Below the pieces are notes generated by a model. That model worked only from the letters and a program-made list of their open reading frames with translations. It made no database searches and was not told where the DNA came from. A program made the translations under genes and the position numbers. From Rhodoplanes serenus (GTDB taxonomy: Bacteria; Pseudomonadota; Alphaproteobacteria; Rhizobiales; Xanthobacteraceae): a stretch of 64,000 bases of DNA. The stretch lies in contig WNKV01000008.1 of the NCBI GenBank assembly GCA_009720755.1, positions 186,001 to 250,000 on the forward strand. Direction: 5' to 3'. Below, piece after piece: positions 8,355 through 24,637 of this stretch (its first letter is position 1; the number at the start of each line of letters is the position of its first letter).

Positions 8355-11183
8355 TCAGGCGAGGCCGTGCGCCGCCTTGCTGCGCTGCTCCTGCGCCTTG
8401 AACGTGTTGAACCGGGGCAGGAACTTGTCCCAGTCGATGAGGTGCGCGTCGAGCTCCGGGCCGTCGATGCAGGCGTGCTTGCGCACCATCTTGCCATCGA
8501 CCGTGATCGGCACCATGCAGGCGCCGCACATGCCGGTGGCATCGACCATGATCGAGTTGAGGCTCGCCACCGTCTTGACGCCGTACGGCTTGGTGAGATC
8601 GGACACCACCCGCATCATGATCGGCGGGCCGATGGTGATCACCTCGGCGATCTTGCGGCCCTTCGAGGTCTTGTCGTTCTTCAGCATCTCTTCGAGGGGC
8701 GTCGTGACGAAGCCCTTGATCCCGAAGGTGCCGTCGTTGGTGGCATAGATCACGTCGAGCTGGTCGCCATACTTCGCCTGGAGCTTGCCGACACGCTCGT
8801 CCTCGCCGGTCCAGAACAGGAACTCCTTGGAGCGGAAGCCGGCGATCAGGGTGACGTGGTTGCCCATCTCGAGATGCGCGCGGGCGATCGGGTAGACGGG
8901 CGGCAGGCCGACGCCGCCGGCGGTGAACACCACGGTCTGATCGGGGCCGTAGTGATGCAGCTCGCTGGCGCGGCCGAGCGGCCCGGCGATGCCGGCGAAG
9001 GCGTCGCCGATCGTCATTCGGTTCATCAGCAAAGTCGAGGTGCCCATGCCCTGGATGACCAGGTCGATGGTGCCCTCCTCGGCGTCCCAGTCGGCGAGCG
9101 TCAGCGGGATCAGCTCGCCGTCGTCCCAGCCCAGCACGCGGACGAACTGCCCGGCCTTGGCGGAGCGCGCCACCATCGGGGCCCGCACCTTGAACTCGAC
9201 GATGCCGCCGGCCAGCGGGATCTTCTCGACGATGGTCTGCTTCACCTGGCCGAGCTCGGTGTAGCGCGCCGCCTTGGCGACGCGCTCCTTGATCTCCTCG
9301 GCGGTGAACGGGATGTCGCCGACGATCTCGCGCGCCGCCGCCTGGCCGTCGCCGGCCGCCCGGATGGCGGTGGAGCCGCCGCGGGCCGCGTCGCCGCCCG
9401 AGTAGACGTCCGCGATGGATGTCTTCTGCGATCCGTCACCGACCTCGATGGTGCCCCACTTGGAGGTCTTCAGGCCGGGCTCGGCCTCCTTCATGATCGG
9501 ATTGGCGGTGTTGCCGAGCGCCATGATGACGAGGTCGACCGGCACCCGCTCGGTCTCGCCGGTCGCCACCGGGGCGCGACGGCCCGACTTGTCGGGCGGG
9601 CCGAGCGCGTTGACGGCGAGCACGGCGTGGCTGACGAAGTGGGTCTTCTCGTCGCCGATGAACTCGATCGGAGCGCGCAGCACCTTGAGGTTGATGCCCT
9701 CCTCAAGGGCGTGATGCAGCTCCTCGACGCGGGCCGGCATCTCGCTCTTGGTGCGGCGATAGACGATGGTCACATTGGCGCCGAGCCGGCGCGCCGTGCG
9801 GGCCGCATCCATGGCGGTATTGCCACCACCGATGACGAACACCTCCTTGCCCTTGGTCTCCGGCAACGGCGTCTCGTACTTGTCGTCGAGCGCCCGCATC
9901 AGGTTGACGCGGGTGAGGAACTCGTTGGCCGACATGACGCCGAGGAAATGCTCGCCCGGCACGTTCATGAAGGTCGGCAGGCCGGCGCCGGTGCCGACGA
10001 AGATCTTCCAGAAGCCGTTGGCCTTGAGGTCCTCCAGGGTCGCCGTCTTGCCGACCACGAAGTTCCTTACGAAGCGGCCGCCCAAGAGGGTGATCTTCTC
10101 GACCACGTCGTCGATCAGCGTATTGGGCAACCGGAACTCCGGAATGCCGTAGCGCAGCACGCCGCCGAGATCGTGGAACGCCTCGAACACCGTCACCGGG
10201 AAGCCCTCGGCGGCGAGCAGATAGGCGTTGATCAGTCCCGACGGGCCGGAGCCGACCACGGCGATCGGCGGCTTCTCGGCGCGCGCCCACGGGCTGACGA
10301 CGCCGGCGAAACGCTCGGCCGGCTTGAGGCCGACCAGCTTCTCGCGTTCGGGCAGGTACCATTCGAGCTGGCCGATCTCGATCGGCCGGCGCGTATGGGT
10401 GCACACGCCCTGGCACTGGAGCTCCTGGGGGCAGACGCGGCCGGTCACGTTCGGCAGCGGGTTGCAGCTCTCGATCAGCTCGAGCGCCTGGCGGAACTTG
10501 CCGTGGCCGAGCAGGTCCAGCATCTCGGGGATGTGGATCTTCACCGGGCAGCCGCCCTTCGGCTCCTTCTTGCCGTGGATCAGCACGCCCAGCTCGCACG
10601 GCTTGTCCTGGCACTGCTTGTCGCGCAGCACCTCCAGCCATACGAACATCTCGACCTCCCGCTGGGTGTAGCCGAGCGCCATGTAGCCGAGATAGCCAGT
10701 GTTCACGAGCTCGAAGTCGTGGGTGCGCTCCTCCGGCGGGCGGATGTAGGGCGGGATGAACACCTCGGCCGGCCAACCGTCCGACAGGCCCTTGAACATC
10801 GGGTACTTGTCCGACAGGTGATCGTCGATCGCCTTGATGAACTTGCGCTTGAACCGCAGCGGCATCGCCCAGATGAACCGCAGCAGCACGGTGCTCATCT
10901 CGTCGTCGCGCAGCAGCAGGCCCCACAGCGTGCGCGTGAAGGCGGCGCCCAGCTCCTCCTGCTGGAACTCCCAGGCGATCGCCTGGACACCGTCCGCCAC
11001 GAACATGCTGCGCAGCGACTTGGGATCGCCCAAGAGGCGGCGCTTGAGGAGATCGAGCTGCTTCTGGAACAGCTCGACCGCCTCCGACTGCTCCAGCTCT
11101 TCGAGCTGGCTGCGAGTCTGCTCCAGCGTGCGCGACGTCTGGGCGTAGCGCTGGAGCTGCTCCTGGGGATTCACCGTCGTCAT
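8355..11183 (-). CDS. Fused NfnAB-like flavoprotein: GltD-type FAD/NAD(P) oxidoreductase plus ferredoxin-NADP reductase-type module
   Basis: A 942-residue multidomain protein. Residues 1-~60 are a predicted coiled coil. About 175-290 hold the Cys-rich Fer4_20-type region of glutamate synthase small subunits ('GRVCPQELQCQGVCTH'). About 300-620 is the GltD-like two-dinucleotide fold ('AVVGSGPSGLINAYLLA', 'VFVIGGGNTAMDAARTARRL'). The last ~290 residues resemble NfnA/SudB-type ferredoxin-NADP reductases and end with a [2Fe-2S] motif ('MCGACMVPITVDGK'). NfnB and NfnA are thus joined in one chain. The expected role is electron transfer between reduced ferredoxin and NAD(P)H, possibly bifurcating. 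The start ATG overlaps the upstream stop by 4 bases (ATGA), so translation is coupled to the PFOR gene. Confidence 0.85.
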   Translation of the reverse strand: MTTVNPQEQLQRYAQTSRTLEQTRSQLEELEQSEAVELFQKQLDLLKRRLLGDPKSLRSMFVADGVQAIAWEFQQEELGAAFTRTLWGLLLRDDEMSTVLLRFIWAMPLRFKRKFIKAIDDHLSDKYPMFKGLSDGWPAEVFIPPYIRPPEERTHDFELVNTGYLGYMALGYTQREVEMFVWLEVLRDKQCQDKPCELGVLIHGKKEPKGGCPVKIHIPEMLDLLGHGKFRQALELIESCNPLPNVTGRVCPQELQCQGVCTHTRRPIEIGQLEWYLPEREKLVGLKPAERFAGVVSPWARAEKPPIAVVGSGPSGLINAYLLAAEGFPVTVFEAFHDLGGVLRYGIPEFRLPNTLIDDVVEKITLLGGRFVRNFVVGKTATLEDLKANGFWKIFVGTGAGLPTFMNVPGEHFLGVMSANEFLTRVNLMRALDDKYETPLPETKGKEVFVIGGGNTAMDAARTARRLGANVTIVYRRTKSEMPARVEELHHALEEGINLKVLRAPIEFIGDEKTHFVSHAVLAVNALGPPDKSGRRAPVATGETERVPVDLVIMALGNTANPIMKEAEPGLKTSKWGTIEVGDGSQKTSIADVYSGGDAARGGSTAIRAAGDGQAAAREIVGDIPFTAEEIKERVAKAARYTELGQVKQTIVEKIPLAGGIVEFKVRAPMVARSAKAGQFVRVLGWDDGELIPLTLADWDAEEGTIDLVIQGMGTSTLLMNRMTIGDAFAGIAGPLGRASELHHYGPDQTVVFTAGGVGLPPVYPIARAHLEMGNHVTLIAGFRSKEFLFWTGEDERVGKLQAKYGDQLDVIYATNDGTFGIKGFVTTPLEEMLKNDKTSKGRKIAEVITIGPPIMMRVVSDLTKPYGVKTVASLNSIMVDATGMCGACMVPITVDGKMVRKHACIDGPELDAHLIDWDKFLPRFNTFKAQEQRSKAAHGLA

Positions 11184-14100
11184 CGAATGATCTCCGCGTC
11201 GCAGTTGGCGGCCGCGCGTGCCACCCGGGCCTTCAGCTCGGGCGTCACCTGGAGGGTGTCGAGAACGCCCGGGATGGTGTGGGCGACCTCCTTGGGGGCG
11301 CCGTCCACGACGATCTTGGTCTTCTCGAACAGCTCCGGCACCTGCTGGTAGCAGGTCTTGCAATTGGTGCAGGACGCCACGTCCTCGTCGTGGATGTAGG
11401 GCACCGCGGCGCCGTTGGCCTTGGCGGCCGCGGCAGCCGGGGCGGCCGCCGCCCCCGGCACGGCGCCGAAGGGCGCCAGGGCGTCGGCAAGACCGGCCGC
11501 CTGCGCCGGGGCGCTCGACGCGGCGGCGAGCTCGCTCATCGCGCGCGCGATGGTGTCGAGCGTCGACTCCTGCGTCTTCACCGCCTCGTCGTACCGCTGC
11601 TTCAGCGCATCGAGCTCGACCTTGTGATCGGCATCGAGCTTCTCGATTTGCCGCCCCGCGAGGTATTGCAGCGTCCGCCAGTAGCGGCGCCGCTCCTCGA
11701 CCAGATGCACGATGGTGTCGGACACTTCGAGCCGCACCAGTCGCTTGTCGTGGTCGGTCGCCCACACGAAGGTCCGCTTGCCGGCACGCTGCTCGGCGGT
11801 GAGCGCCACGTACTCGTCCACCGGGATCGCCTCGACGTCGGCGGCGAGCTTGCGGAAGTGCTTCTTGAAGCGGGTCTCCTCCTGGGCGAAGTAGGCCGGC
11901 GTCAGCGGCACGTCCATCAGCTTGGTGGCACCGTCCTCGACATACTCGATGGTGGTCGTCGTCCAATCCTTGTCGAGGTCCGGGTTGCCGTCGAGCGAGA
12001 ACCACCCCTTGCGGGTCGGGTTGGCGCCCGGATCATGGACGAACACCGGGTTCATGCGGCTTTCCACCGCCAGGCGCGCCCGTCGGCTGGCGGCCGCGTC
12101 GGCGATGCCGTGCTCGGCCTGGCACGGCGTGTAGACGTCGAGCACCGCCGGCGACGCCGTATGGTTCAGGTAGCGGGTGACGTTCTGGAGGAAGTGCTGC
12201 TGGAGCGCCGTCGAGGTCTGCACCACGAAGACGTTGGGATGGAACGCGGCGATCAGGCCGAGCTCCTTGCGGTCCTCCTGCTTGCCCTGATGGGCCGAGC
12301 CGAAGCGGGCGAGATCGGAGTCCTGTCCGGTGAGGCTCGCGGTCGATGCCTGGCCGCCGGTGTTGGAATAGACACCAGTGTTGAGCACCACCACCTTCAC
12401 GGGCGTGTTGGTGGCCAAGAGCCGCGACAGCGCGCCGAAGCCGATGTCGTAAGTGGCGCCGTCACCGCCCATGCTGATCACGGTCGGCAGCAGCGACAGC
12501 TCCTCGGGCGTGAACTGCGGCCACGCGAAGGTGCGGAACAGCTTGTCGTGCACCGCCGGATCGTAGGCGTCGTCCAGCTCCAGCCGGGCGATGCGCAACG
12601 CCTTGACGTCGTCGACCGCCGACGCCGTCAGCCCCTCGAACATGCCCTTGGCGACCGCCGGGGTGTCCTGGAACAGGCTGTTGACCCACGGATCGTTGTA
12701 GGGATTGAACGGGAAGGTCGAGGCGTAGACGCTCGAGCAGCCGGTGGCGTTGGCGATCACCGCCGAGGCCGGTCCGTTGCCGGTAGGGCCGCTCTCCAGC
12801 AGATAGAGACGCTTTTCGAGGACGGTCAGCACGCCGGCGATGCGCTCGCGCCGCGTGGCGTCGTCCTGCACGGCGGGCAGCTTCGCCTGGAGATCGGCGA
12901 TCAGCGTCTCCAGCTCGCGCAGATGCTCCTTGCGACGCTTGGCCTGGATGGCGTTGTTGGTCGAGGTCACCAGGCGGATCGCCGTCACCTCGCCGCAGCC
13001 GCGGCAGGCGCCGTGGCCGCCCGTGGTGGCATAGTAGTTGTTGCGGTCGAGCATCAGCCGCTTGGTGTCGCCGTCCGCCGTCAAGGCCGCCTCGGTGAAG
13101 CGGGCCGGCGTGTTCGCCGTCTTGCTGAGGAACTCGAAGCGCGCCTGAAGGGTCTCGAGCAGCGCCGCATCCTGCTCGCGCGCCTTGAGGGCGCCCGGGC
13201 CGCACACGTCGATGCATTCGAGGCAGCCGGAGCATTTCCACGGATCGATGGCGACCGAGTAGAGGCCGCCGGTGCCGGGCCGCTCCTTCTCCATGGCGTC
13301 GAAGAACGGCCGCGTGCGGGCGACCGGGAAGCTCGCCAGCACCTCGGCGAGCTTGCCGAGATTGCGTTCGAGCGTCGGATTGTCGAGGCCGAGCCCGGCG
13401 ACGGCGGCGACGACGACGTCGGCGAGCGGCTTCGTCTCCTTGCCGGACCGATACGCCTCCCGCACCGCCTCCGAGAGCGCGTACACCTGGCCGCGCACCG
13501 CCTCGCGCTGCGCCTCGATCAGATCGAGATGCTTGATGCCGGTGAGCAGCAGATCGTGAATGTCGTGCACCGTGTTGGGGATCGCCGCATCCGGGCAGAC
13601 CAGGGTGCATTCCATGCAGCCGGTGCACAGATCCGGAACGAACTCCGGCACGTCGCGGCGGAACAGGCCCTTGTCCTTCCAGGCCGCACTGCCGGCCGGC
13701 ATGAACAGCCCGGTGCCGGGCAGCACCGGCGCCTCGGCGATGGTGCCGTCGCGGAACGGCGCCGCCATCATCTCCTCGTAGTACTCGCGATCGAAGACGC
13801 CTTCGCTCGGAGCATTGCCGGCGACACGACACATCTCGGCCGAGATGGCGACGCTGCGCAGCGCCTTGACGCCCGCCTCGGTCTCCGCCTCGACGAATTC
13901 GGGCTGGGTGTAGTCGAGCGCCTGGGTGGCCTCCAGGCCCTCACGGATCACCGCCATGTTGCCTTCGACGACGGCGGCCCCCTTGGCACCGAACTTCTTG
14001 GCGATCTGCTGCCGGATCTTGGTGACCATGGCGTCGCGCGAGGCATCGGCGACGATCCGGTCGACATGGCCGCAGACGGCGCCGATGAAGGCGATGCCCA

Positions 14101-16159
14101 TCATCCGGGTCTCCAGCTCGGGCGTCGGCGCGTGGCGCTTGGCCACCGCGAAGCCGTCGACCACGAACACCTTGATCTTCTTGTCGCGGATGGTCTTGCG
14201 GGCGCGCTTCGGCAGCTCCTTCCACACCTCGAGCGGCGACAGGTTCGATTGCAGCACGAAGGTGCCGCCCTCGACCAGGCCACGCAGCGGATTGGTGTGG
14301 CTGAACACCTTGTGGTCCGGCGAGACGACGATCTCGACGTCCTCCAGCTCGGCATTGGTGATCTTCACCAGCTCGGGGCTGAGTGTGATGTAGTAGTTGG
14401 TCGGCGCCCCGCTCTTCTCGGAGCCGTACTTGGGCGACGCCTTGGAGTGCATGTCGAGCACGCCGGCGAGAATGTCGGTGAGCAGCTTGCCGGTCGCGAT
14501 GGTGCCGTAGCCGCCGACCGAGTGGAAGCGCACCCGGAAGGCCGAGGGCGGCAGCAGGGTCGGGTTCGGCTCCGTCTCGAGCGCCATCAGCTCGGTCTCG
14601 GGATAGGCGGCGCGCAGCCGCTCCTGGAGCGCGGCGAGCCGCGGCGACGGGTCCTTGGCGAAGAACTGCGAGCCGAGATAGACGAACGGCGCGTTATTGG
14701 TCTCCATGTTTTTGAACGCGGCGATCAGATGGCGCGGCTGGAGATCGTGGGCGCCGAGCCCGAAGATCGCGGTGGTCATCTTGGGCAGGCGGTCGATGGC
14801 GGCGATGCCGGGATGCCGCGGACCGGCCGCGTTCTCGACGGCCTTGAACAGCGCCTGGGTGACGAGGCTGGTCAGCGCGGTGACGTCCGACCGCTCGAGC
14901 ACCGTCACGGCGGTCTTGCCCTTCAGCGCCTCGACCAACTCGGCCTCCGGGAACGGCTGGAGCAGCTTCACCGAGACGACGCCGACCTTCTTGCCCTGGC
15001 GGCGCAGATGCTCCACCACGGCTTCGACGTCGTCGGTGACCGAGCCGAGGCCGACCATCACATGCTCGGCGTCGTCGCACATGTAGGTCTTCACCGGCTT
15101 GTACTCGCGGCCGGTCAGCGCCGAGTACTCGGCCATCGCCTCGCGGACGAAGCGCGGCACGTCGCGAACGAAATGGGTGCGGTGATCGACCGAACCGGCC
15201 TGGAAGTCGGGCTGGTTCTGCACGCCGCCGGTGAGGCCGGGATTGTGCACGTCGACGAGCGCCGGCACGAGCTGACGGGTGCCCTTCTCGAAGGCGTTGA
15301 GCCACTGGCGGCGGAAGCGCGCGCGCAGCTCGTCGGGCACATGGGCGGCCGCAGTCTCGACGAGAGCGCCGGCATTGTCGGTCTCCACCGCATCGGCGTT
15401 GGCGTCGAGCCAATCACGCAGGGCGGTGAGCTGAGCGGGCGCGAAGTCGATCTCGTGGCGGGCGAGCCACTGGCGGATCTGCTGGACGCGGCCCTTGGCG
15501 CCGAACAGAATCTCCTGCGCCACCGTCGGGCACTTGATGCGCCCCGCCGGATCGCCGAGAAACTCGCGCAGCAGCTCGGGCTCCGGCATCAGCGCCTCGC
15601 TCATCATGTGCGAGGTGGCAAACCCGTCCATCGCGTTGGCGACCGGAATCAGCGAGGTGGCACTGACCTTGTAGGAGATCGCGGCGAGATCGGCCGCTTC
15701 CTGCGGATTGGAGCCGAACAGGATGGTGTAGCCGGACGGCAGCAGAGCATAGACGTCGTCGTGGCCGGCCATCACGTTGAGCGAGTGCTTCGACACCACG
15801 CGGGCGGCGACCTGGAGCACGAAGCCGCCGACCTTCTTGCCGACGGTCACGTAATGGGACTCCAGCCCATACAGGATGCCCTGGCTGGACGATGCGTTGG
15901 AGACGAACTTGCCGCCGGTGAGGGCCGCGCCGAGCGCGCCTGACTGAGCCGAATGCTCTCCCTCCGGCTCGAAGAAGAACGGATGCTTGCCCCAGACGTT
16001 GCAGCCGCCGGCCGAGCGGAACGCCTCGTAGATCTCGGAAATTTCGGTCGACGGAGTGATCGGGTAGCCGATGACGCCTCCGCAGACGTGGCCCATCACC
16101 TGAGCGACGGCACCGTTGCCGTTGATGACTGTCGAAATGCCGGGAAACTTCGCGTTCAT
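11180..16159 (-). CDS. Pyruvate:ferredoxin (flavodoxin) oxidoreductase, extended one-chain form
   Basis: A 1659-residue NifJ-type enzyme, roughly 450 residues longer than usual. Domain I starts with 'GYPITPSTEISEIYEAF' near residue 30. The gamma-type domain lies around 500-700. Two 4Fe-4S motifs follow at about 843 ('CTGCMECTLVCP') and 975 ('CSGCLECIDVCGPG'). The TPP domain has 'CRGCGE' near 1050, 'GGDGATYDIGFGAL' near 1233 and 'NTGVYSNTGGQ' near 1262. A C-terminal extension has a coiled-coil stretch, an Ala/Pro linker and a ferredoxin-like tail with 'CTNCKTC' near 1598. The reaction is pyruvate plus CoA to acetyl-CoA, CO2 and reduced ferredoxin, reversible; 2-oxoacid specificity is not proven. 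ATG 16159 fits the family start. It is cotranscribed with the NfnAB-like gene. Confidence 0.9.
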   Translation of the reverse strand: MNAKFPGISTVINGNGAVAQVMGHVCGGVIGYPITPSTEISEIYEAFRSAGGCNVWGKHPFFFEPEGEHSAQSGALGAALTGGKFVSNASSSQGILYGLESHYVTVGKKVGGFVLQVAARVVSKHSLNVMAGHDDVYALLPSGYTILFGSNPQEAADLAAISYKVSATSLIPVANAMDGFATSHMMSEALMPEPELLREFLGDPAGRIKCPTVAQEILFGAKGRVQQIRQWLARHEIDFAPAQLTALRDWLDANADAVETDNAGALVETAAAHVPDELRARFRRQWLNAFEKGTRQLVPALVDVHNPGLTGGVQNQPDFQAGSVDHRTHFVRDVPRFVREAMAEYSALTGREYKPVKTYMCDDAEHVMVGLGSVTDDVEAVVEHLRRQGKKVGVVSVKLLQPFPEAELVEALKGKTAVTVLERSDVTALTSLVTQALFKAVENAAGPRHPGIAAIDRLPKMTTAIFGLGAHDLQPRHLIAAFKNMETNNAPFVYLGSQFFAKDPSPRLAALQERLRAAYPETELMALETEPNPTLLPPSAFRVRFHSVGGYGTIATGKLLTDILAGVLDMHSKASPKYGSEKSGAPTNYYITLSPELVKITNAELEDVEIVVSPDHKVFSHTNPLRGLVEGGTFVLQSNLSPLEVWKELPKRARKTIRDKKIKVFVVDGFAVAKRHAPTPELETRMMGIAFIGAVCGHVDRIVADASRDAMVTKIRQQIAKKFGAKGAAVVEGNMAVIREGLEATQALDYTQPEFVEAETEAGVKALRSVAISAEMCRVAGNAPSEGVFDREYYEEMMAAPFRDGTIAEAPVLPGTGLFMPAGSAAWKDKGLFRRDVPEFVPDLCTGCMECTLVCPDAAIPNTVHDIHDLLLTGIKHLDLIEAQREAVRGQVYALSEAVREAYRSGKETKPLADVVVAAVAGLGLDNPTLERNLGKLAEVLASFPVARTRPFFDAMEKERPGTGGLYSVAIDPWKCSGCLECIDVCGPGALKAREQDAALLETLQARFEFLSKTANTPARFTEAALTADGDTKRLMLDRNNYYATTGGHGACRGCGEVTAIRLVTSTNNAIQAKRRKEHLRELETLIADLQAKLPAVQDDATRRERIAGVLTVLEKRLYLLESGPTGNGPASAVIANATGCSSVYASTFPFNPYNDPWVNSLFQDTPAVAKGMFEGLTASAVDDVKALRIARLELDDAYDPAVHDKLFRTFAWPQFTPEELSLLPTVISMGGDGATYDIGFGALSRLLATNTPVKVVVLNTGVYSNTGGQASTASLTGQDSDLARFGSAHQGKQEDRKELGLIAAFHPNVFVVQTSTALQQHFLQNVTRYLNHTASPAVLDVYTPCQAEHGIADAAASRRARLAVESRMNPVFVHDPGANPTRKGWFSLDGNPDLDKDWTTTTIEYVEDGATKLMDVPLTPAYFAQEETRFKKHFRKLAADVEAIPVDEYVALTAEQRAGKRTFVWATDHDKRLVRLEVSDTIVHLVEERRRYWRTLQYLAGRQIEKLDADHKVELDALKQRYDEAVKTQESTLDTIARAMSELAAASSAPAQAAGLADALAPFGAVPGAAAAPAAAAAKANGAAVPYIHDEDVASCTNCKTCYQQVPELFEKTKIVVDGAPKEVAHTIPGVLDTLQVTPELKARVARAAANCDAEIIR

Positions 16160-16966
16160 CTGTTGCGTCCGTCTGGTCGTGAACACATTCGAGCGAAAGC
16201 CCGCGCCCGCGTGGCGGCCGGGGCGGCCGGGCGCGCTCGAACTCTTTGGGAATCAGCGCTCCGCCCCTGTGTCCTTCTTCGCAGCACGCCGCGCACGCGA
16301 CGCGGACACTGTGCCACCTTGACTGGCTTCCTCTTACGCCTCGCCCAGCCCACCTTCTCTGACTATTGTCAAAAGCGGCCGGAGCCGCCCGGTCTGGTCG
16401 ACGCAGTGCTGCGATCGAAACATGAGTTGATCCAACCGTGGCGATGCGCGCGAAACGCGGTGGCGACGTCACGCTGCGCCGCCGCGAAGACGGTCGTTCG
16501 GACGCGCTCGTCGCGACGCGACAAGTCCGCGCTCCGCAGGGGTTTCCTGAAGCTTCTGGGCAGCCGGACCGAGCGCCGCGGCGGTGCTGCATATGCGAAC
16601 GCCACCGCTGCGGCACAGCCGTTTCGGCCCGCGAACTCGGCGGCCGCGCGCGGGTCGCAGACCCGCCATGTGAAATATCAAGTGATCTTCCGCGTGAGCT
16701 GCACAAGCGCCATGCTGGGGCGGAGCATCTGGCCTGCGGCCGATGCACGTCATCAAACTAAAAATGGCGAGAGCAGAGAATTCCTGTCGCGACTCGCGTC
16801 GCGAGCGGGTCGTCGGAGCGCCTCGTTTGGGCCGACGGGCCGGCAGCGCACGCCGGCGGCGGACCGCGCAAGGCGCACCGGCAGCCGACGGGCGGGCCGG
16901 CAGCGCGCCAACGCCCGCCGGCCGAGCGGACGCCGACGCCGCGCCGTGGCCTGGCGACGCCGCCCC
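16160..16966. other. Intergenic, 807 bp, no convincing gene
   Basis: This long gap precedes the oxidoreductase operon (minus strand) and follows the end of the esterase gene. Short open frames here have no recognisable domains and look like shadows. TTGACA on the minus strand at 16372-16367 could be a -35 element, but no matching -10 is visible. The operon promoter and any redox control site are expected here; I did not find a clear FNR box. Confidence 0.5.
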
Positions 16967-18329: not shown

Positions 18330-19112
18330 ATGGACCTCGCGCTCGCCGGCAAGGCCGCCCTCGTCACCGGCGCGACGGGCGGAATCGGCCGGGCCACCGC
18401 GCTCCGGCTGGCGCGTGAAGGCATGGACGTCGCACTGACCGGACGATCCGCGGAAAGGCTGGCGGCGTTGCACGACGAGATCATCGCCGGCGGCGGCCGC
18501 GCCGTGGCGGTCGCGGCCGACCTGCGCGAGCCGGAGGCGGCCGGCCGCGTCGTCGCCACCGCGGTGGCGGCGCTCGGCCGTCTCGATCTGCTGGTCAACT
18601 GCGCCGGCGCCACCAAGCGCGGCGACGTGCTCGCCCTCGACGAAGCCGACTGGACGGACGGCTTCGCGCTCAAGTTCTTCGGAACGGTGCGGATGGTGCG
18701 CGCGGCGTGGCCGCATCTGCGTGAGGCCGCCGGCGGCATCGTCACCGTGGCGGGCAATGGCGGGCGCACGGGTGATCGCGACTTCGCCATCGGCGGCAGC
18801 GTCAACGCGGCGCTCGGCCTTCTCACCAAGGCGCTGGCCGATCGTGGCATCGGCGACGGCGTGCGGGTCAACGCCATCAATCCGGGCATCGTCGAGACCG
18901 ACCGCTATCGCGTCCGCCTCGCCCGCCTGATGGCGGAGACCGGCCTGTCGGAGCAGGACGCCGCCGCGCGGATGCGGGCGACACACCGCGTTGCGCGCTT
19001 CGCCCGGCCCGAGGAGGTCGCCGACCTGATCGCCGTGATGGCGTCGCCGCGCCTCGCCCACCTCAACGGCGCCATCGTGGATCTCGATGGTGGCGAGACG
19101 CGAGCGCTGTGA
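18330..19112 (+). CDS. Short-chain dehydrogenase/reductase family protein lacking the YxxxK motif
   Basis: A 260-residue SDR-fold protein. The cofactor turn 'VTGATGGIGRATAL' and 'LVNCAGATKRGD' are intact, and the C-terminus 'LNGAIVDLDGGETRAL' is typical. In the catalytic region near residues 153-160, where most SDRs read Y-x-x-x-K, this protein reads 'FAIGGSVNAALGLLTKAL', so Tyr and Lys are replaced by Gly and Asn. The preceding Ser region reads 'VTVAGNGGR'. The protein may be a divergent SDR using other residues, or a non-catalytic binder. ATG 18330 follows AGGAGA at 18315-18320. It is divergent from the esterase gene, sharing a 148-bp promoter region. Confidence 0.85.
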   Translation: MDLALAGKAALVTGATGGIGRATALRLAREGMDVALTGRSAERLAALHDEIIAGGGRAVAVAADLREPEAAGRVVATAVAALGRLDLLVNCAGATKRGDVLALDEADWTDGFALKFFGTVRMVRAAWPHLREAAGGIVTVAGNGGRTGDRDFAIGGSVNAALGLLTKALADRGIGDGVRVNAINPGIVETDRYRVRLARLMAETGLSEQDAAARMRATHRVARFARPEEVADLIAVMASPRLAHLNGAIVDLDGGETRAL

Positions 19113-19136
19113 ATCACGGCGTCGCAAGCGGGTGGA

Positions 19137-19265
19137 TCAACCGCGCTGTTGCGGCTCGCTCGGGCGCGGCGACCGCTGGAGGCCGCGGCGCACACTGTCG
19201 CCGACCTGCTGGACGGCGCCGCCCATGACGATCAGCAGAAAGGTCGCGAGATGGGACATCTTCAT
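19137..19265 (-). CDS. Candidate small hydrophobic protein, 42 aa
   Basis: A 42-codon open frame convergent with the SDR gene. The ATG at 19265 is preceded by GGAG at a good spacing. The N-terminus is 'MKMSHLATFLLIVMGGAV', a plausible single membrane segment, followed by a polar, Arg/Pro-rich tail ending 'PSEPQQRG'. I recognise no family. It could be a membrane microprotein or a chance frame. No homology search was possible, so the call rests on the ribosome site and the hydrophobic N-terminus. Confidence 0.35.
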   Translation of the reverse strand: MKMSHLATFLLIVMGGAVQQVGDSVRRGLQRSPRPSEPQQRG

Positions 19266-19399
19266 GAGGCACTCCGGACGTCTGTGGAGATGGGCTTCCG
19301 ACGGTACCACGAGAGATCCGCGAGACGATGCGCCCGACCGTGACGGTCGGGCGGTCGCGCACGCACCAGGATGCAGGGCGGGTCGGGGCCTGACGCGAA

Positions 19400-19669
19400 T
19401 CAGCGCGCCGCGCCGGTGATCAGCTTGATGAACTCCAGCACCACCAAAGCCACCAGCCCGACCGCGACGATCGCCAGCGGCACCACTGCCATGCGGGTCG
19501 GCTCGGTGCCGGCGCCGAACACGGTCGATACCACGAGCGTCACGAAGACGACCGCGAGCATCGCCCAGATCAGCACGCTCATGCGTTCGTTGTAGCTGCT
19601 GCGATCCGTCCGCCGCATGGCGACATCGAGGGCGGCGGCGCGGTAGCGGCTGGTCGAGGGTTGGGTCAT
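19400..19669 (-). CDS. Small two-helix membrane protein, unknown function
   Basis: An 89-residue protein from the ATG at 19669. Residues 1-27 are polar and basic, followed by two hydrophobic segments ('MSVLIWAMLAVVFVTLVV' and 'MAVVPLAIVAVGLVALVV'). It has the look of a conserved small inner-membrane protein, but I cannot name a family. A longer in-frame start upstream adds an Arg-rich segment with no plausible fold. It is transcribed divergently from the cytochrome-bchO unit, so the two PpsR-like motifs in the shared intergenic region may affect it as well. Function is unknown. Confidence 0.6.
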   Translation of the reverse strand: MTQPSTSRYRAAALDVAMRRTDRSSYNERMSVLIWAMLAVVFVTLVVSTVFGAGTEPTRMAVVPLAIVAVGLVALVVLEFIKLITGAAR

Positions 19670-19896
19670 CGTCGTCTCGTCGGTTCGGGGGCGGCGACGC
19701 GGAACGAAGCGAGCAGGACGGCGTGCCGTTCGAGCCGTGCTGCGTCTACTGCGGCTCCGTCGTCGACAGCATCGACGCGGTGGTCTCACGCTCCGCAGTG
19801 TATGAACCTGGAGCGTAGAGATCCGTTCCGCGCGCCGACAAGCGAAATGGCCCGTGGACAGCGCCGCCGCGCGACTTCAGATCACATCGCGTCGGC

Positions 19897-19914
19897 TGTC
19901 ACGACGAGCTGACA
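19897..19914. promoter_or_regulatory. PpsR/CrtJ-like operator 1
   Basis: TGTCACGACGAGCTGACA fits the PpsR/CrtJ consensus TGT-N12-ACA and is a perfect TGTCA/TGACA palindrome. It lies about 350 bases upstream of the cytochrome start codon. The regulator itself is not in the window, so the assignment rests on the motif and on the downstream bchO gene. Confidence 0.5.
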
Positions 19915-20018
19915 ACGGCGTGCGTCAGTCACGGCCGCGCGCCGTGTCGACTGCCGCACCAAACCGGCCGCGCCATGCCCGAGACTGTCCGCGGGGCGTG
20001 ACGCACGATGACGACGGC

Positions 20019-20036
20019 TGTCTTGTCTGACTGACA
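20019..20036. promoter_or_regulatory. PpsR/CrtJ-like operator 2
   Basis: TGTCTTGTCTGACTGACA also fits TGT-N12-ACA. It lies 122 bases downstream of operator 1 and about 230 bases before the cytochrome start. PpsR/CrtJ binds pairs of such sites cooperatively at several photosynthesis promoters, which makes a pair here more convincing than one site. Confidence 0.5.
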
Positions 20037-20264
20037 CATGCGACCGGATCTGATCACGATCTCAGAATCATGCACGGCGCGCCGTGGCGGCGTGGAACTC
20101 GTCGCTCCGATCCGATTTGGCTTGGCAGACATCGGAGCCTCGCGAGGCCCCCGAGGCGTCGCGACCTGCCGGCCCGGAACGTCTCCGTGACCGACGATGC
20201 GCATGGCCCGACGCCTCCCTCGCTTCGCCGATCTCCACAGAACCGCTGGGAGAGCCACCGGACC

Positions 20265-22325
20265 ATGACGGCCGCCGAAACAGCCGCGCCCGTCGCACCG
20301 GAGAGTGCGAGCCTCGGTACGCGGCGGCTGCTGCGCTGGAGCCTCGCGGCGTGTGGTCTCTTGCTGGTCCTCGATCTCGCCCGCTCGCTGATCGGACATT
20401 TTGGCTACGCCTCGCCCGTCTCGATGTGGCAGCCCGAGACGGACCGCTACGCCGATATCGTGTGGCCGCCCGCCGCGAGCGTGCCGCCGGGCGCATCGCG
20501 CGGGCAGCGCGTCTTCCTGGAGAACTGCGCCATCTGTCACGGCCCCGAAGGCCGCGGCAACGGTGCCGCCGCGCCCTCGCTGGCGCCGCGCCCGCGCGAT
20601 CTCGCCAGCCCCGCCTTCAAGTACAAGTCGACGCCGGCGGGCGCACCGCCGCATGTCGACGACATCCGCCGCGTGGTGCGAGACGGGCTCGCCGCGAGCG
20701 CCATGCCGGGCTTCGGCGACATCCTCACTCCCACCGACCTGGACGCGGTCGTCGCCTTCGTGCGCGATCTCGGCGCGCCGGCCGCTACGGCGAGCCCGAC
20801 GGACACCGCGCCCGTGGTCGTGTCGCCACGTCCGCCGGCGACGGCCGCGAGCGTCTCACGCGGGGCGACGCTGTATTCCGAGCAGGGCTGCGCGGGCTGC
20901 CACGGCGACGATCTGCGCGGCGGACAGGTGATGGCCGAAGCCGGTGACAGCTCCGTCACCAGCCGAGACCTGACGGCGCCGTGGACGTTCCGCGGCGGCG
21001 CCGCGCCTACTGACGTCTTCCTGCGCCTCACCACCGGGCTCGCGCCCGCCCCCATGCCGGCCTACGCGCATCTGCCGGAGCCCGACCGCTGGGCGCTGGT
21101 CGACTTCATCGAGTCGCGCCGCCGCCCCGCCCCCGGCGAGCCCGGCGCCGTGCTGGCGAGCCCCGGCCAATCGGCCGACCCGCTGGTGCGCGGCCGCTAT
21201 CTGGTGCGCGCCGGCCTCTGCGGCCTGTGCCACACCGAGGTGAGCCGCATCGGGATCTATCGCGACGACCGCTATCTGGCCGGCGGCATCCGCGTCGCCG
21301 CGCATCCGCAAGGCGTGTTCGTCAGCCGCAACCTCACCCCCGACGACGAAACGGGCCTGGGCCGCTGGAGCGAGGCCGAGATCGCCCGCGCCATCCGCGA
21401 CGGCCGCACCGCCAACGGCCTGCTCAATCCGTGGAGCATGCCGTGGCTGTTCCTGCACGGCCTGTCGGACCCCGACGCGATGGCGATCGCCCGTTATCTG
21501 AAGACGCTGCCGCCGGTGCACAACGCGGTGCCCGAGCCGCTCGGCTACGGCGCCGTCGAGACGGTGCTGACCAAGCTACGGAGCGGCGATCCGTGGCTCG
21601 GCCGGCCCGAGACGATCACCTATGCGGCCGGCAACTTCGCCGGGCGCAGCGGGCCGAGCCTCGCCCGCGTGCAGACGCTCCTCACCATCGCTCAGGCGGT
21701 GGTACTCCTGCTCTGGCTCGCCCTGCTGGCGCGGGCGATCCCGGCACGGCTGTGGCTGCCGCTCGGCCGGCGGAGCTGGCGTGGCGCCCTCGCCGGCACG
21801 GCGGCGGTCGCCGTCTATGCGGCCCCGATGCTCGGCCTCGTCCCGGCCGGCTTGGTGGCGGACGCGGCGCTGCGCGACGTGCCACAGCCAATTACCGACG
21901 GGCTCGCCCCCGAGCAGGCCGCCCTGATCGACCGCGGCCGCTATCTCTTCACCCATGCGTCCTGCGTGTTCTGCCACCGCGCCGACGGCAGCGGCGGCCT
22001 CAAGCTGAGCGGCCTGCCGGGCACCCTCTACACCGCCAACATCTCGTCCGATCCGAGCGCCGGCATCGGCGCCTGGAGCGATGCCGAGATCGCCCGCGCG
22101 GTGCGCTCCGGCGTCGGCCGCCGCGGCCGCCCGCTCTACTGGCAGGCGATGCCGTGGGACCACTTCTCCAACCTCGACGAGGAGGACGTGATGGCGCTCA
22201 CCGCCTATCTGCGGCGGCTGCCGCCGGTGGCCACGGCGGTGCCGGCCTATCGGCCGCCCTCGGTCGACGATTGCCGCGACTACACGGTGTGGACGGTGCC
22301 CAGCACCACACCCGGATGCCGCTGA
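20265..22325 (+). CDS. Membrane-bound tetraheme c-type cytochrome
   Basis: A 686-residue protein with an N-terminal membrane anchor (about 21-45) and four c-haem motifs: CAICH at 88, CAGCH at 209, CGLCH at 319 and CVFCH at 567. Between the third and fourth motifs are two further hydrophobic segments (about 470-500 and 505-533). Four cytochrome c domains, mostly periplasmic, are thus joined in one chain. The third and fourth domains resemble the cytochrome subunit of membrane alcohol dehydrogenases. It likely carries electrons between a periplasmic dehydrogenase, or a cyclic photosynthetic route, and an oxidase; the partner is unknown. GGGAG lies upstream of ATG 20265. The next gene, bchO, begins 32 bases after its stop. 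Confidence 0.88.
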   Translation: MTAAETAAPVAPESASLGTRRLLRWSLAACGLLLVLDLARSLIGHFGYASPVSMWQPETDRYADIVWPPAASVPPGASRGQRVFLENCAICHGPEGRGNGAAAPSLAPRPRDLASPAFKYKSTPAGAPPHVDDIRRVVRDGLAASAMPGFGDILTPTDLDAVVAFVRDLGAPAATASPTDTAPVVVSPRPPATAASVSRGATLYSEQGCAGCHGDDLRGGQVMAEAGDSSVTSRDLTAPWTFRGGAAPTDVFLRLTTGLAPAPMPAYAHLPEPDRWALVDFIESRRRPAPGEPGAVLASPGQSADPLVRGRYLVRAGLCGLCHTEVSRIGIYRDDRYLAGGIRVAAHPQGVFVSRNLTPDDETGLGRWSEAEIARAIRDGRTANGLLNPWSMPWLFLHGLSDPDAMAIARYLKTLPPVHNAVPEPLGYGAVETVLTKLRSGDPWLGRPETITYAAGNFAGRSGPSLARVQTLLTIAQAVVLLLWLALLARAIPARLWLPLGRRSWRGALAGTAAVAVYAAPMLGLVPAGLVADAALRDVPQPITDGLAPEQAALIDRGRYLFTHASCVFCHRADGSGGLKLSGLPGTLYTANISSDPSAGIGAWSDAEIARAVRSGVGRRGRPLYWQAMPWDHFSNLDEEDVMALTAYLRRLPPVATAVPAYRPPSVDDCRDYTVWTVPSTTPGCR

Positions 22326-22357
22326 CCCGTTTCACCCCCGACCGTCAGGAGTCCCCC

Positions 22358-23338
22358 GTGCGTCGTCCCGTTTCCCGTCCACAGCACTCGCCCGCCTCCC
22401 CATCGGCGTCTCCGCATCCCCCGCTGTCGTGGGAGCGCGACGGCCACGATTGGCCCAATCGACAGGCCAGCCACTTCGTCGAAGCCGCCGGCCTGCGCTG
22501 GCACGTCCAGGAGATGGGGCGCGGGCCGGTGCTGCTGCTGATCCACGGCACCGGCTCGGCCACCCATTCATGGCGCGATCTCATGCCGCTGCTGGCCCGC
22601 CACTTCACCGTGGTGGCGCCCGATCTCCCCGGCCACGGCTTCACCGAGATGCCGGCCCGCGAGCGCCTGTCGCTCGACGGCATGGCGGAGGACCTGCATG
22701 CGCTGCTCCAGGCGCTCGGCCGCTTCCCCGCCGTGGTGGCGGGGCACTCGGCGGGCGCTGCGGTGCTGGCCCGCATGTGCCTCGACGGGCGGATCGGGCC
22801 GCGGGCGCTCGTCGGCCTCAACGGCGCCATGCTGCCGATCGGCGGCATGGCCGGCCGCCTGCTGACACCGTTCGCACGGCTCCTGGCGGCGAGCGCCATG
22901 GTGCCGCGCCTGTTCGCCCGCTTCGCCGCCAACGATGGCTTCGTCGAGCGGATGATCCGCGACACCGGCTCGACCCTCGACCCCGCCGGCATCGCCTTCT
23001 ACCGGCGGCTCACCTGCCATCCCGCCCACGTCGCCGCCGCGGTGCGAATGATGGCCAACTGGCGGCTGCCGCCGCTCGCCCGCGAGCTGCCGCATCTGCG
23101 CACCCGGCTGGTGCTGGTGACCGGCGGCAACGACAAGACCATCGCGCCAAACGACGCCGCGCGCGTCCGCGTGCTGCTGCCGGATGCGACGCTGGTGCCG
23201 CTGCCGGGACTCGGCCATCTCGCCCACGAGGAGCGCCCGGACGAGGTGGCGGCCCTCATGGTGCAGGTGGGGCGGGAGGCCGGCGTGCTGCCGGCGCTCC
23301 ATCTGGTGGAGCAGGAGGTGGCGGTCGCGGCGGAGTGA
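22358..23338 (+). CDS. bchO: BchO, alpha/beta-hydrolase associated with magnesium chelatase
   Basis: A 326-residue alpha/beta-hydrolase. The segment 'DWPNRQASHFVEAAGLRWHV' is the hallmark N-terminus of BchO, followed by 'LLLIHGTGSATHSWRDL', 'VVAPDLPGHGFTEMP' and the nucleophile elbow 'VAGHSAGAAV'. BchO is normally encoded next to bchI and bchD in photosynthesis gene clusters and is thought to assist magnesium insertion; its exact reaction is unproven. The GTG at 22358 has AGGAG seven bases upstream. An ATG at 22316 overlaps the cytochrome stop but has no ribosome site. Here bchO follows a cytochrome gene instead of bchID, with PpsR-like motifs upstream of the unit. The residues before 'DWPNR' form a Ser/Pro/Arg-rich extension. 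Confidence 0.85.
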   Translation: MRRPVSRPQHSPASPSASPHPPLSWERDGHDWPNRQASHFVEAAGLRWHVQEMGRGPVLLLIHGTGSATHSWRDLMPLLARHFTVVAPDLPGHGFTEMPARERLSLDGMAEDLHALLQALGRFPAVVAGHSAGAAVLARMCLDGRIGPRALVGLNGAMLPIGGMAGRLLTPFARLLAASAMVPRLFARFAANDGFVERMIRDTGSTLDPAGIAFYRRLTCHPAHVAAAVRMMANWRLPPLARELPHLRTRLVLVTGGNDKTIAPNDAARVRVLLPDATLVPLPGLGHLAHEERPDEVAALMVQVGREAGVLPALHLVEQEVAVAAE

Positions 23339-23361
23339 TCCGCCCGTAGCGGCGCCTCCAT

Positions 23362-23440
23362 CCGGTTCGCCGTCGAAACCGCGACCATGAAAGACGTCTT
23401 GGAGCGGAATCCGATTCAGTTGAATCGGGTTCCGCTTTAT
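23362..23440 (+). repeat. Family A palindromic repeat, partial copy
   Basis: The sequence matches the middle and 3' end of the repeat at 32229-32331: the GGTTCGCCGTCGAAA block, then a GGAGCGG-(N)-CCGATT-CAGT-TGAATCGG-(N)-CCGCT palindrome. The 5' arm is missing or diverged. It precedes the D-threonine-aldolase-like gene, and an in-frame ATG at 23387 falls inside the repeat. Confidence 0.7.
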
Positions 23441-23479
23441 GAAGGGCCTCGACCCCAACCGGAAGAACGAGGCCCGCCC

Positions 23480-24637
23480 GTGCGCCTGGACGACGTCGGA
23501 ACCCCCGCCGCGGTGATCGACCACGCCGCGATGATGCGCAACATCGCGCGCATGCAGACCCGCATGGACACGCTCGGCGTGCGGCTGCGCCCGCATGTCA
23601 AGACGTCGAAATGCATCGCCGTGGGCACCCTGCAACGCGACGCCGGCGCGCCCGGCATCACCGTCTCGACCCTGAAGGAGGCGGAGGAGTTCTTTTCCGC
23701 CGGCTTCGACGACATCCTCTATGCGGTCGGCATCGCGCCCCAGAAGCTCGACCGCGTGCTGGCGCTGCGCCGCGCCGGCTGCCGGCTCGCCGTGCTGGTC
23801 GATTCGGTCGCCGGCGCCGACGCCGTGGTGGCGCGTGGCCGCGCCGAGGCGCACGCCTTCGACGTCGTCATCGAGATCGACACCGACGGCCATCGTGCCG
23901 GCGTCGACCCGGAGAGCACGACGCTGATCGACATCGGACGGCGCCTCGCCGACGGCGGCGCCACGCTCCAGGGCGTGCTGGCGCATGCCGGCAGCTCCTA
24001 CGGGCTGAGCACCCCCGAGGCGTTGGCCCAGATCGCCGAGCAGGAGCGCCGCCGCACCGTGCGGGCGGCCGAGCGCCTGCGCGCCGCCGGCCTGCCCTGC
24101 CCGCAGGTCAGCATCGGCTCGACTCCGACGGCGCTGTCGGCGCAGAACCTGGAGGGCGTCACCGAGGTGCGCGCTGGCGTCTACGTGTTCTTCGATCTGG
24201 TGATGGCCAATGTCAGCGTCTGCCGGCCGGACGAGATCGCGCTCTCGGTGCTGACCACGGTGATCGGCCACCAGGTCGAGAAAGGCTGGGCGATCGTGGA
24301 TGCCGGCTGGATGGCGATGAGCCGCGACCGCGGCACCCAATCGCAGGCGATCGATTACGGCTACGGCGCGGTGTGCGATGCCGACGGGCGGCTGGTCGAT
24401 GGCTGGATCATGCTCGGCGCCAACCAGGAGCACGGCATCCTGGGGCGGCGGGCGGACGGCGCCGAGCGCGCGGGCGAGGGCGAGGGCGACGACGACGTGG
24501 CGCGCCGCTTCCCGATCGGCACCCGGCTGCGCATCCTGCCCAACCACGCCTGCGCCACGGCGGCGCAGTTCTCCGCCTACGCGGTCGTGGACGCGGCCGG
24601 CGACGTCCAGGAGTGGCCGCGGTTCAACGGCTGGTGA
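23480..24637 (+). CDS. DSD1-family PLP enzyme, D-threonine aldolase / D-serine dehydratase-like
   Basis: A fold-type III (alanine-racemase-like) PLP enzyme of 385 residues from the GTG at 23480, which has AACGAGG eight bases upstream. The N-terminal barrel begins 'VRLDDVGTPAAVIDHAAM'; 'RPHVKTSKC' carries the PLP-binding lysine. The C-terminal domain ends with the metal-binding pattern P-N-H-x-C in 'LPNHACATAAQF'. Relatives cleave D-threonine or other D-3-hydroxy amino acids to glycine plus an aldehyde, or dehydrate D-serine or 3-hydroxyaspartate. The substrate is not determined here. An ATG 31 codons upstream is inside a repeat and adds residues unlike the family. Confidence 0.85.
   Translation: MRLDDVGTPAAVIDHAAMMRNIARMQTRMDTLGVRLRPHVKTSKCIAVGTLQRDAGAPGITVSTLKEAEEFFSAGFDDILYAVGIAPQKLDRVLALRRAGCRLAVLVDSVAGADAVVARGRAEAHAFDVVIEIDTDGHRAGVDPESTTLIDIGRRLADGGATLQGVLAHAGSSYGLSTPEALAQIAEQERRRTVRAAERLRAAGLPCPQVSIGSTPTALSAQNLEGVTEVRAGVYVFFDLVMANVSVCRPDEIALSVLTTVIGHQVEKGWAIVDAGWMAMSRDRGTQSQAIDYGYGAVCDADGRLVDGWIMLGANQEHGILGRRADGAERAGEGEGDDDVARRFPIGTRLRILPNHACATAAQFSAYAVVDAAGDVQEWPRFNGW

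Follow-up and report, generated by a model that had tools for sequence, protein, structure and literature searches.

Why does a bchO gene lie directly behind the gene for a four-haem membrane cytochrome, with TGT-N12-ACA sites upstream, and does the cytochrome therefore belong to the photosynthetic regulon, as a first-pass annotation had proposed? We studied this question for positions 19897-23338 of a 64,000-nucleotide stretch of Rhodoplanes serenus, below called the window (G000:C50:186001-250000). The window genome, G000, comprises 5.5 Mb in 51 contigs, and the NCBI taxonomy places Rhodoplanes in the Nitrobacteraceae. Judging from the sequence comparisons below, the region is quite probably a two-gene operon, consisting of the tetraheme cytochrome and a paralogous bchO, under a PpsR-type operator array. 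We refer to the paralogue as bchO2, which is our own label for a clade of second bchO copies. PpsR most likely controls both genes together; the cytochrome is a likely member of the PpsR regulon and is probably switched on with photosynthesis.

Gene pair, operators and probable regulator

The two genes are co-directional on the forward strand and the gap between them measures 32 bases (22325 to the GTG at 22358), as first described. The product of bchO2 reached 325.5 bits against the NCBIfam model TIGR03056 (cut-off 172.55), and the cytochrome carries four CXXCH motifs. The exact TGT-N12-ACA sites at 19897 and 20019 are 122 bases apart from start to start, leaving 104 base pairs (bp) between them, and the first has the reported TGTCA/TGACA ends. 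In 5000 dinucleotide shuffles of the 592-base intergenic region, at least two TGT-N12-ACA sites occurred in 6 cases and at least two sites of the stricter form TGTC-N10-GACA in 1 case. When the whole window was shuffled, a pair within 140 bases appeared in 5 (loose form) and 1 (strict form) of 300 shuffles. Because these frequencies are low at both scales the pair is improbable by chance, as had been claimed, and it is firm because it recurs in relatives. According to the part of PMC6199135 available to us, CrtJ recognition sites are paired at 8 bp or at 45-500 bp. The spacing in the window fits such pairs, with the 104 bp gap between the exact sites and a half-site following the first palindrome after 8 nucleotides.

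All five genomes with the cytochrome-bchO pair, G000 included, have a site of this type upstream. It is an exact TGTC-N10-GACA in G000, G079 and G046 (Rhodopseudomonas rhenobacensis) and has one mismatch in G117, where TGT-N12-ACA is retained, and in G009, where it reads CGT-N12-ACA. The aligned pair is formed by the first site and the one-mismatch site at 19986, with a spacing of 89 bp in the window and 90 bp in G079. Table 1 lists the features.

Table 1. Features of the cytochrome-bchO2 locus (window positions)
Feature	Position	Strand	Remarks
PpsR-type palindrome TGTCACGACGAGCTGACA, first operator	19897..19914	.	TGTCA/TGACA ends; aligned in G079 (exact) and G117 (7/8)
Half-site CGTCA	19923..19927	+	8 nucleotides behind the first palindrome
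One-mismatch site TGTCCGCGGGGCGTGACG	19986..20003	.	Aligned with G079, whose second site is exact (TGTCCGGCGCGCGTGACA)
Second exact site TGTCTTGTCTGACTGACA	20019..20036	.	No counterpart seen in the 4 relatives that have the cytochrome-bchO pair
Tetraheme membrane c-type cytochrome, 686 amino acids	20265..22325	+	Start picked by alignment with relatives; frame could open at 20070
bchO2, alpha/beta hydrolase, paralogue of the cluster bchO	22358..23338	+	GTG start, AGGAG upstream
Strong hairpin followed by TTTA, directly 3' of bchO2	23404..23438	+	Possible 3' end of the unit

The first-pass annotation had suggested looking for ppsR and a photosynthesis gene cluster in the genome, and both are present. 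Two full-length ppsR genes lie on contig C11 (538 and 513.7 bits, cut-off 275.4). Cluster genes above their family cut-offs are pufL, pufM, pufC, bchC, bchX, bchY, bchE, bchJ and crtD, accompanied by genes resembling crtI, crtB and crtE and by a phytochrome-like gene. The bchD-type gene at C11:130557 scored 495.1 bits, just below the cut-off of 499.55, and a shorter match to the bchD model at C11:132479 was taken as bchI by its place and length. Joining the DNA around the cluster gave 80 kb with ten TGT-N12-ACA sites, six inside genes and four intergenic by simple gene calling, and all four intergenic sites have the form TGTC...GACA. One of these cluster sites, C11:116787, precedes a crtF-like methyltransferase gene, itself located before bchC, and is followed by a half-site GGTCA after 8 nucleotides. 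As far as the available part of PMC10569730 goes, PpsR1 and PpsR2 act as activator and repressor in Bradyrhizobium, and both are repressors in Rhodopseudomonas palustris. Since the signs differ between these bacteria, PpsR in Rhodoplanes may act as a repressor or as an activator.

A second bchO and its operators

A search for another bchO, which had likewise been proposed, found a second copy above the cut-off at C11:126902-127723 (315 bits), about 2.8 kb from the bchD-type gene. As G000 has this bchO in the cluster, the window gene is an extra copy, and the two are 55% identical. The statement that bchO stands away from bchI and bchD thus holds for the window copy and fails for the genome. 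Among the open reading frames of the window there is no bchI or bchD beside bchO2; the bchD- and bchI-type matches are those on C11 near the other bchO. A fructose-bisphosphatase gene lies between that bchO and the bchD-type gene (G000:C11:126902-133402), and tblastn also placed such a gene beside bchO in G053 and G143.

Like the cluster protein, bchO2 exceeds the TIGR03056 cut-off and has the GHSAG motif and the conserved Asp and His. S131 (the Ser in GHSAG), D259 and H287 are invariant across 19 aligned rows, and we take these residues to act as a catalytic triad. It differs from the cluster BchO in forming a separate clade and in lacking the linkage to bchI and bchD. BchO was found above the cut-off in 20 of the 149 family genomes, 13 of them with two copies and 7 with one. 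The two-copy genomes comprise four of group g1 (Rhodoplanes, sampled with 6 genomes, one of them 58% complete), two of g6, six of g28 and G046 of g46. In the class, 27 of 385 genomes have BchO and only G000 has two copies. In a tree of 58 rows the 13 second copies form one clade (support 100/99), which adjoins the cluster copies of g16, g28, g46 and g6; with a support of 92/75 this placement is not firm, and the deep order of the tree is unsure owing to long outgroup branches. The cluster copies of Rhodoplanes form their own clade (100/100) apart from bchO2.

Judged by their listings, the open-licence PubMed Central papers returned by our searches describe no second bchO in this family and include no functional study of a purple-bacterial BchO. 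The portion of PMC10569730 at hand treats bchO as a single cluster gene, and the gene named bchO in green sulphur bacteria is an unrelated one, going by the accessible text of PMC6166724. For Rhodobacter capsulatus, the excerpted PMC6199135 describes a CrtJ-controlled bchODI-crtA operon, in which bchO also lies behind TGT-N12-ACA motifs 45-500 bp apart. There bchO leads the operon, whereas bchO2 of Rhodoplanes is located outside the cluster, behind a cytochrome gene and without bchD or bchI.

To see which gene the operators accompany, we compared the 500 nucleotides that precede each unit's first gene, with 1000 dinucleotide shuffles per region; the gene starts are partly approximate. An exact TGTC-N10-GACA was present upstream of 11 of the 13 bchO2 units, those that have the cytochrome and those that lack it alike, and occurred twice in five of them, against 0.004-0.018 expected per region. 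The two units without an exact site (G117 and G009) each have a 7/8 site. Upstream of cytochrome loci without a bchO match we observed an exact site in none of six distinct loci (seven rows, L060 and L088 being from the same metagenome-assembled genome, MAG). The operators therefore go with bchO2 and not with the cytochrome. For seven of the eight bchO2 units without cytochrome a second site, exact or 7/8, follows 64-66 bp behind the first. Of the 26 exact or 7/8 sites, 17 are followed at 5-8 nucleotides by a half-site [TC]GTCA, and 12 of the 13 units show this arrangement; the background is 2.2% of all positions in those regions.

Genome-wide, the loose count of TGTC-N10-GACA (92 sites, 26 in the control) is too unspecific and its sites were listed as far as contig C17, and we therefore used the palindrome together with its half-site. 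The pattern palindrome-N5-9-GTCA occurs at seven places in G000 and at none when reversed. The region before the cytochrome accounts for two of these and the cluster for one, ahead of the crtF-like gene. A gene for 249 amino acids and a GntR-family gene have one each, and the remaining two fall within or close to coding frames. The counts for ten other genomes were 0 (G049), 1 (G013), 2 (G117), 4 (G009), 6 (G079), 7 (G053, G107 and G024), 10 (G050) and 11 (G046). G024 has no BchO match, yet it contains 7 such places. The reversed pattern matched 3 times in G024 and once each in G117, G050 and G049; with up to three control matches the half-site filter produces false positives, and it is a filter rather than a proof.

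Two of the places, both outside the window, concern further genes. The 249-amino-acid gene (G000:C50:114219-114965; L152:657-1403, reverse strand) has the palindrome TGTCAGCTCGGGCTGACA about 100 bp upstream, and exact TGTC-N10-GACA sites also precede its orthologues in G079 and G117. No close site was found for those in G028 and G125, and none in the 251 bases examined before that of G009. The gene is present in 6 of the 149 family genomes (four of g1, two of g28), with no match in G053. Its product matched nothing in Pfam, PHROGs or the PDB sequences and gave a poor model (predicted local distance difference test, pLDDT, 49.3). Based on the upstream sites it is a candidate for a new PpsR target. 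The second place is TGTCTAGTATCATAGACA at G000:C50:260916-260942 (L155), next to a GntR/UTRA-family gene. It fits the strict PpsR pattern and may belong to that regulator.

The tetraheme cytochrome

The CXXCH motifs are located at residues 88, 209, 319 and 567, and Pfam detects cytochrome c domains. Behind each motif a Met is invariant in all 11 aligned rows (M147, M264, M392 and M629), which suggests four haems with His/Met ligation. Of three hydrophobic segments one is N-terminal and two are mid-protein, a layout that would place all four haems in the periplasm. The AlphaFold model was built from 11 rows and has a mean pLDDT of 65.4, so that we used fold matches at the level of domains only.

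Residues 78-288, the first two haem domains, match 6h5l_B, the cytochrome chain of the Kuenenia Kustc0457/0458 complex, in sequence and fold. That chain has about 220 residues, whereas the window protein has 686 and hydrophobic segments. The last two haem domains resemble the cytochrome c subunits of membrane dehydrogenases that act on alcohol, glucose, fructose and aldehyde (9x0q_B, 8gy2_B, 8hdd_B, 7w2j_C and 8gy3_A), the best-matching stretches being in the last domain, while 9jqa_C matches the third; the fold matches fall in the same membrane-dehydrogenase group. Such subunits carry three haems and are encoded in an operon with a dehydrogenase subunit. Unlike them, the window cytochrome has four haem motifs, an extra N-terminal pair and the mid-protein hydrophobic segments. 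We saw no membrane dehydrogenase of that kind alongside it, and the next gene in the linked genomes is bchO2. The four motifs and the missing partner gene speak against such a subunit. PufC, another multihaem cytochrome of phototrophs, has four haems, but the window protein shows no match to its model NF040706 at an E value of 0.001, and G000 has its own pufC.

For relatives of the cytochrome we ran a pattern scan over 84,980 species genomes; such a scan can overlook relatives, and the window's own genome may be absent from the set. The scan returned 24 loci. Ten of them (L084-L093) align along most of the protein at 45-71% identity; the other 14 are partial matches and were left out of the counts. 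In four of the ten (R. elegans, R. tepidamans, 'Rhodovulum sp. PH10' and Rhodopseudomonas rhenobacensis) bchO2 follows directly, and the examined DNA around the other six contains no BchO match. Read by eye, the flanks of those six showed no shared neighbour gene. The cytochromes of the five paired genomes are 67-72% identical to that of the window. The gap to bchO2 is 32, 46, 34 and 31-64 nucleotides in four genomes and 179 in G009.

In a tree of 11 rows the cytochromes linked to bchO2 form one clade (100/100), and the branching within Rhodoplanes is the same as in the bchO2 tree. The bchO2 units of g6 group with g46 and g1 (93/92) and have no cytochrome. Apparently the cytochrome came between the operators and bchO2 a single time, in the lineage comprising Rhodoplanes and Rhodopseudomonas rhenobacensis. 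The simplest history would be one association event followed by joint inheritance or transfer, in which case the g6 units would have lost the cytochrome or branched off before.

Probable control of the pair and possible role of the cytochrome

Several observations weigh against an operon under PpsR control that serves photosynthesis. The second operator is poorly conserved: it is exact in G079 only, G046 has a near-site and G117 and G009 have none at 7/8. Of the two sites originally claimed, the first recurs in the relatives, exactly or with one mismatch, and for the one at 20019 no counterpart was seen; the one-mismatch site at 19986 aligns with an exact site in G079. G117 and G009 also have no exact strict site at all. 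No sigma-70-like promoter was found in the intergenic region, though real promoters may deviate from that model, and the operators could act instead or also on a divergent small open frame (19400-19671, reverse strand). The genome-wide patterns also match places unlinked to photosynthesis and their counts vary widely between genomes. Furthermore a close relative in the genus, G053, possesses cluster genes although neither the cytochrome nor bchO2 was matched there; a cluster can thus exist without the unit, which is an accessory. Finally members of the cytochrome family also occur independently of bchO: six other genomes or MAGs of several phyla, including Nitrospinia and Anaerolineae, carry one with no bchO beside it.

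The last two points also favour a different account of the cytochrome, namely that it is a passenger in the PpsR-controlled unit with no role in photosynthesis and serves general oxygen-controlled periplasmic electron transfer. In Rhodobacter capsulatus the targets of CrtJ include a respiratory oxidase operon, at least in the passages of PMC5362033 available, and relatives of the cytochrome stand alone in MAGs of several phyla. The linkage to bchO2 nevertheless seems to have arisen once and was retained in five genomes at the identities given above and with mostly short gaps. We find the passenger account plausible but lean away from it. The proposal that the cytochrome is part of the photosynthetic regulon thus divides: membership in the PpsR regulon is likely, given two ppsR genes and sites in five of five genomes, while the claim to be a photosynthesis protein loses ground with the bchO-less homologues, which have no operators.

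It is improbable that the sites serve a regulator other than PpsR that recognises a TGTC...GACA palindrome. The strict pattern beside the GntR-family gene (C50:260916) demonstrates that it is not exclusive to PpsR, and the genomic excess of strict sites over the control points the same way. However, all four intergenic sites of the cluster region have this form, one with the same half-site after 8 nucleotides, and in phototroph genomes such sites are found repeatedly before a bchO-family gene. A bchO that moved out of the bchI-bchD neighbourhood would explain the absence of these genes beside the window copy but is refuted by the second copy near bchD, the window gene being a paralogue in a different clade. 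A chance match of the site pair is equally remote: TGT-N12-ACA is frequent (the window has 7, against 3.2 expected) and shuffled windows do yield some pairs, but the shuffle counts for strict sites and their recurrence in bchO2 units reject it.

For the PpsR-controlled operon we propose the following course. A membrane cytochrome gene that is solitary elsewhere would have ended up between the operators and bchO2 and so have come under the same control, the two genes presumably being co-transcribed. Oxidised PpsR would bind the palindromes and the half-site and repress the unit. Low oxygen, with a possible input of phytochrome and light, would lift the repression, and the cytochrome and BchO2 would be made along with the photosystem. 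With what are probably four periplasmic His/Met haems, the cytochrome would then pass electrons between a membrane donor and a soluble or reaction-centre acceptor. A tentative and rather unlikely proposition is that this once-solitary protein was recruited to photosynthesis as a four-haem electron carrier that has so far escaped notice, its gene having been captured by a PpsR promoter and being expressed with bchO2.

The hairpin behind bchO2 (-31.2 kcal/mol, z -6.3) was matched in stability by none of 200 shuffles and is a possible terminator of the unit, although it is missing from the output of the terminator scan. It overlaps the beginning of the following open frame (23387-24637); judged by reading, the true start of that frame is probably later, near 23480. 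No Rfam family reached its gathering score within 19000-24000. Elsewhere in the window, the translations indicate a large pyruvate:ferredoxin oxidoreductase-like frame at 8355-16186 (reverse strand). Beside it lies a frame with stretches resembling glutamate synthase small subunit and ferredoxin-NADP reductase, and the frames overlap.

The locus points to a PpsR-type regulon that extends beyond the photosynthesis gene cluster to a paralogous BchO. If the carrier proposition is true, electrons in these purple bacteria could also enter or leave the reaction-centre/cytochrome chain by an additional periplasmic route when oxygen is low. Nature provides the comparison: bchO2 with operators and no cytochrome, the cytochrome with neither operators nor bchO, and both together. 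With these three arrangements the capture of an electron carrier by a promoter would be testable in cultured Rhodoplanes and Rhodopseudomonas rhenobacensis.

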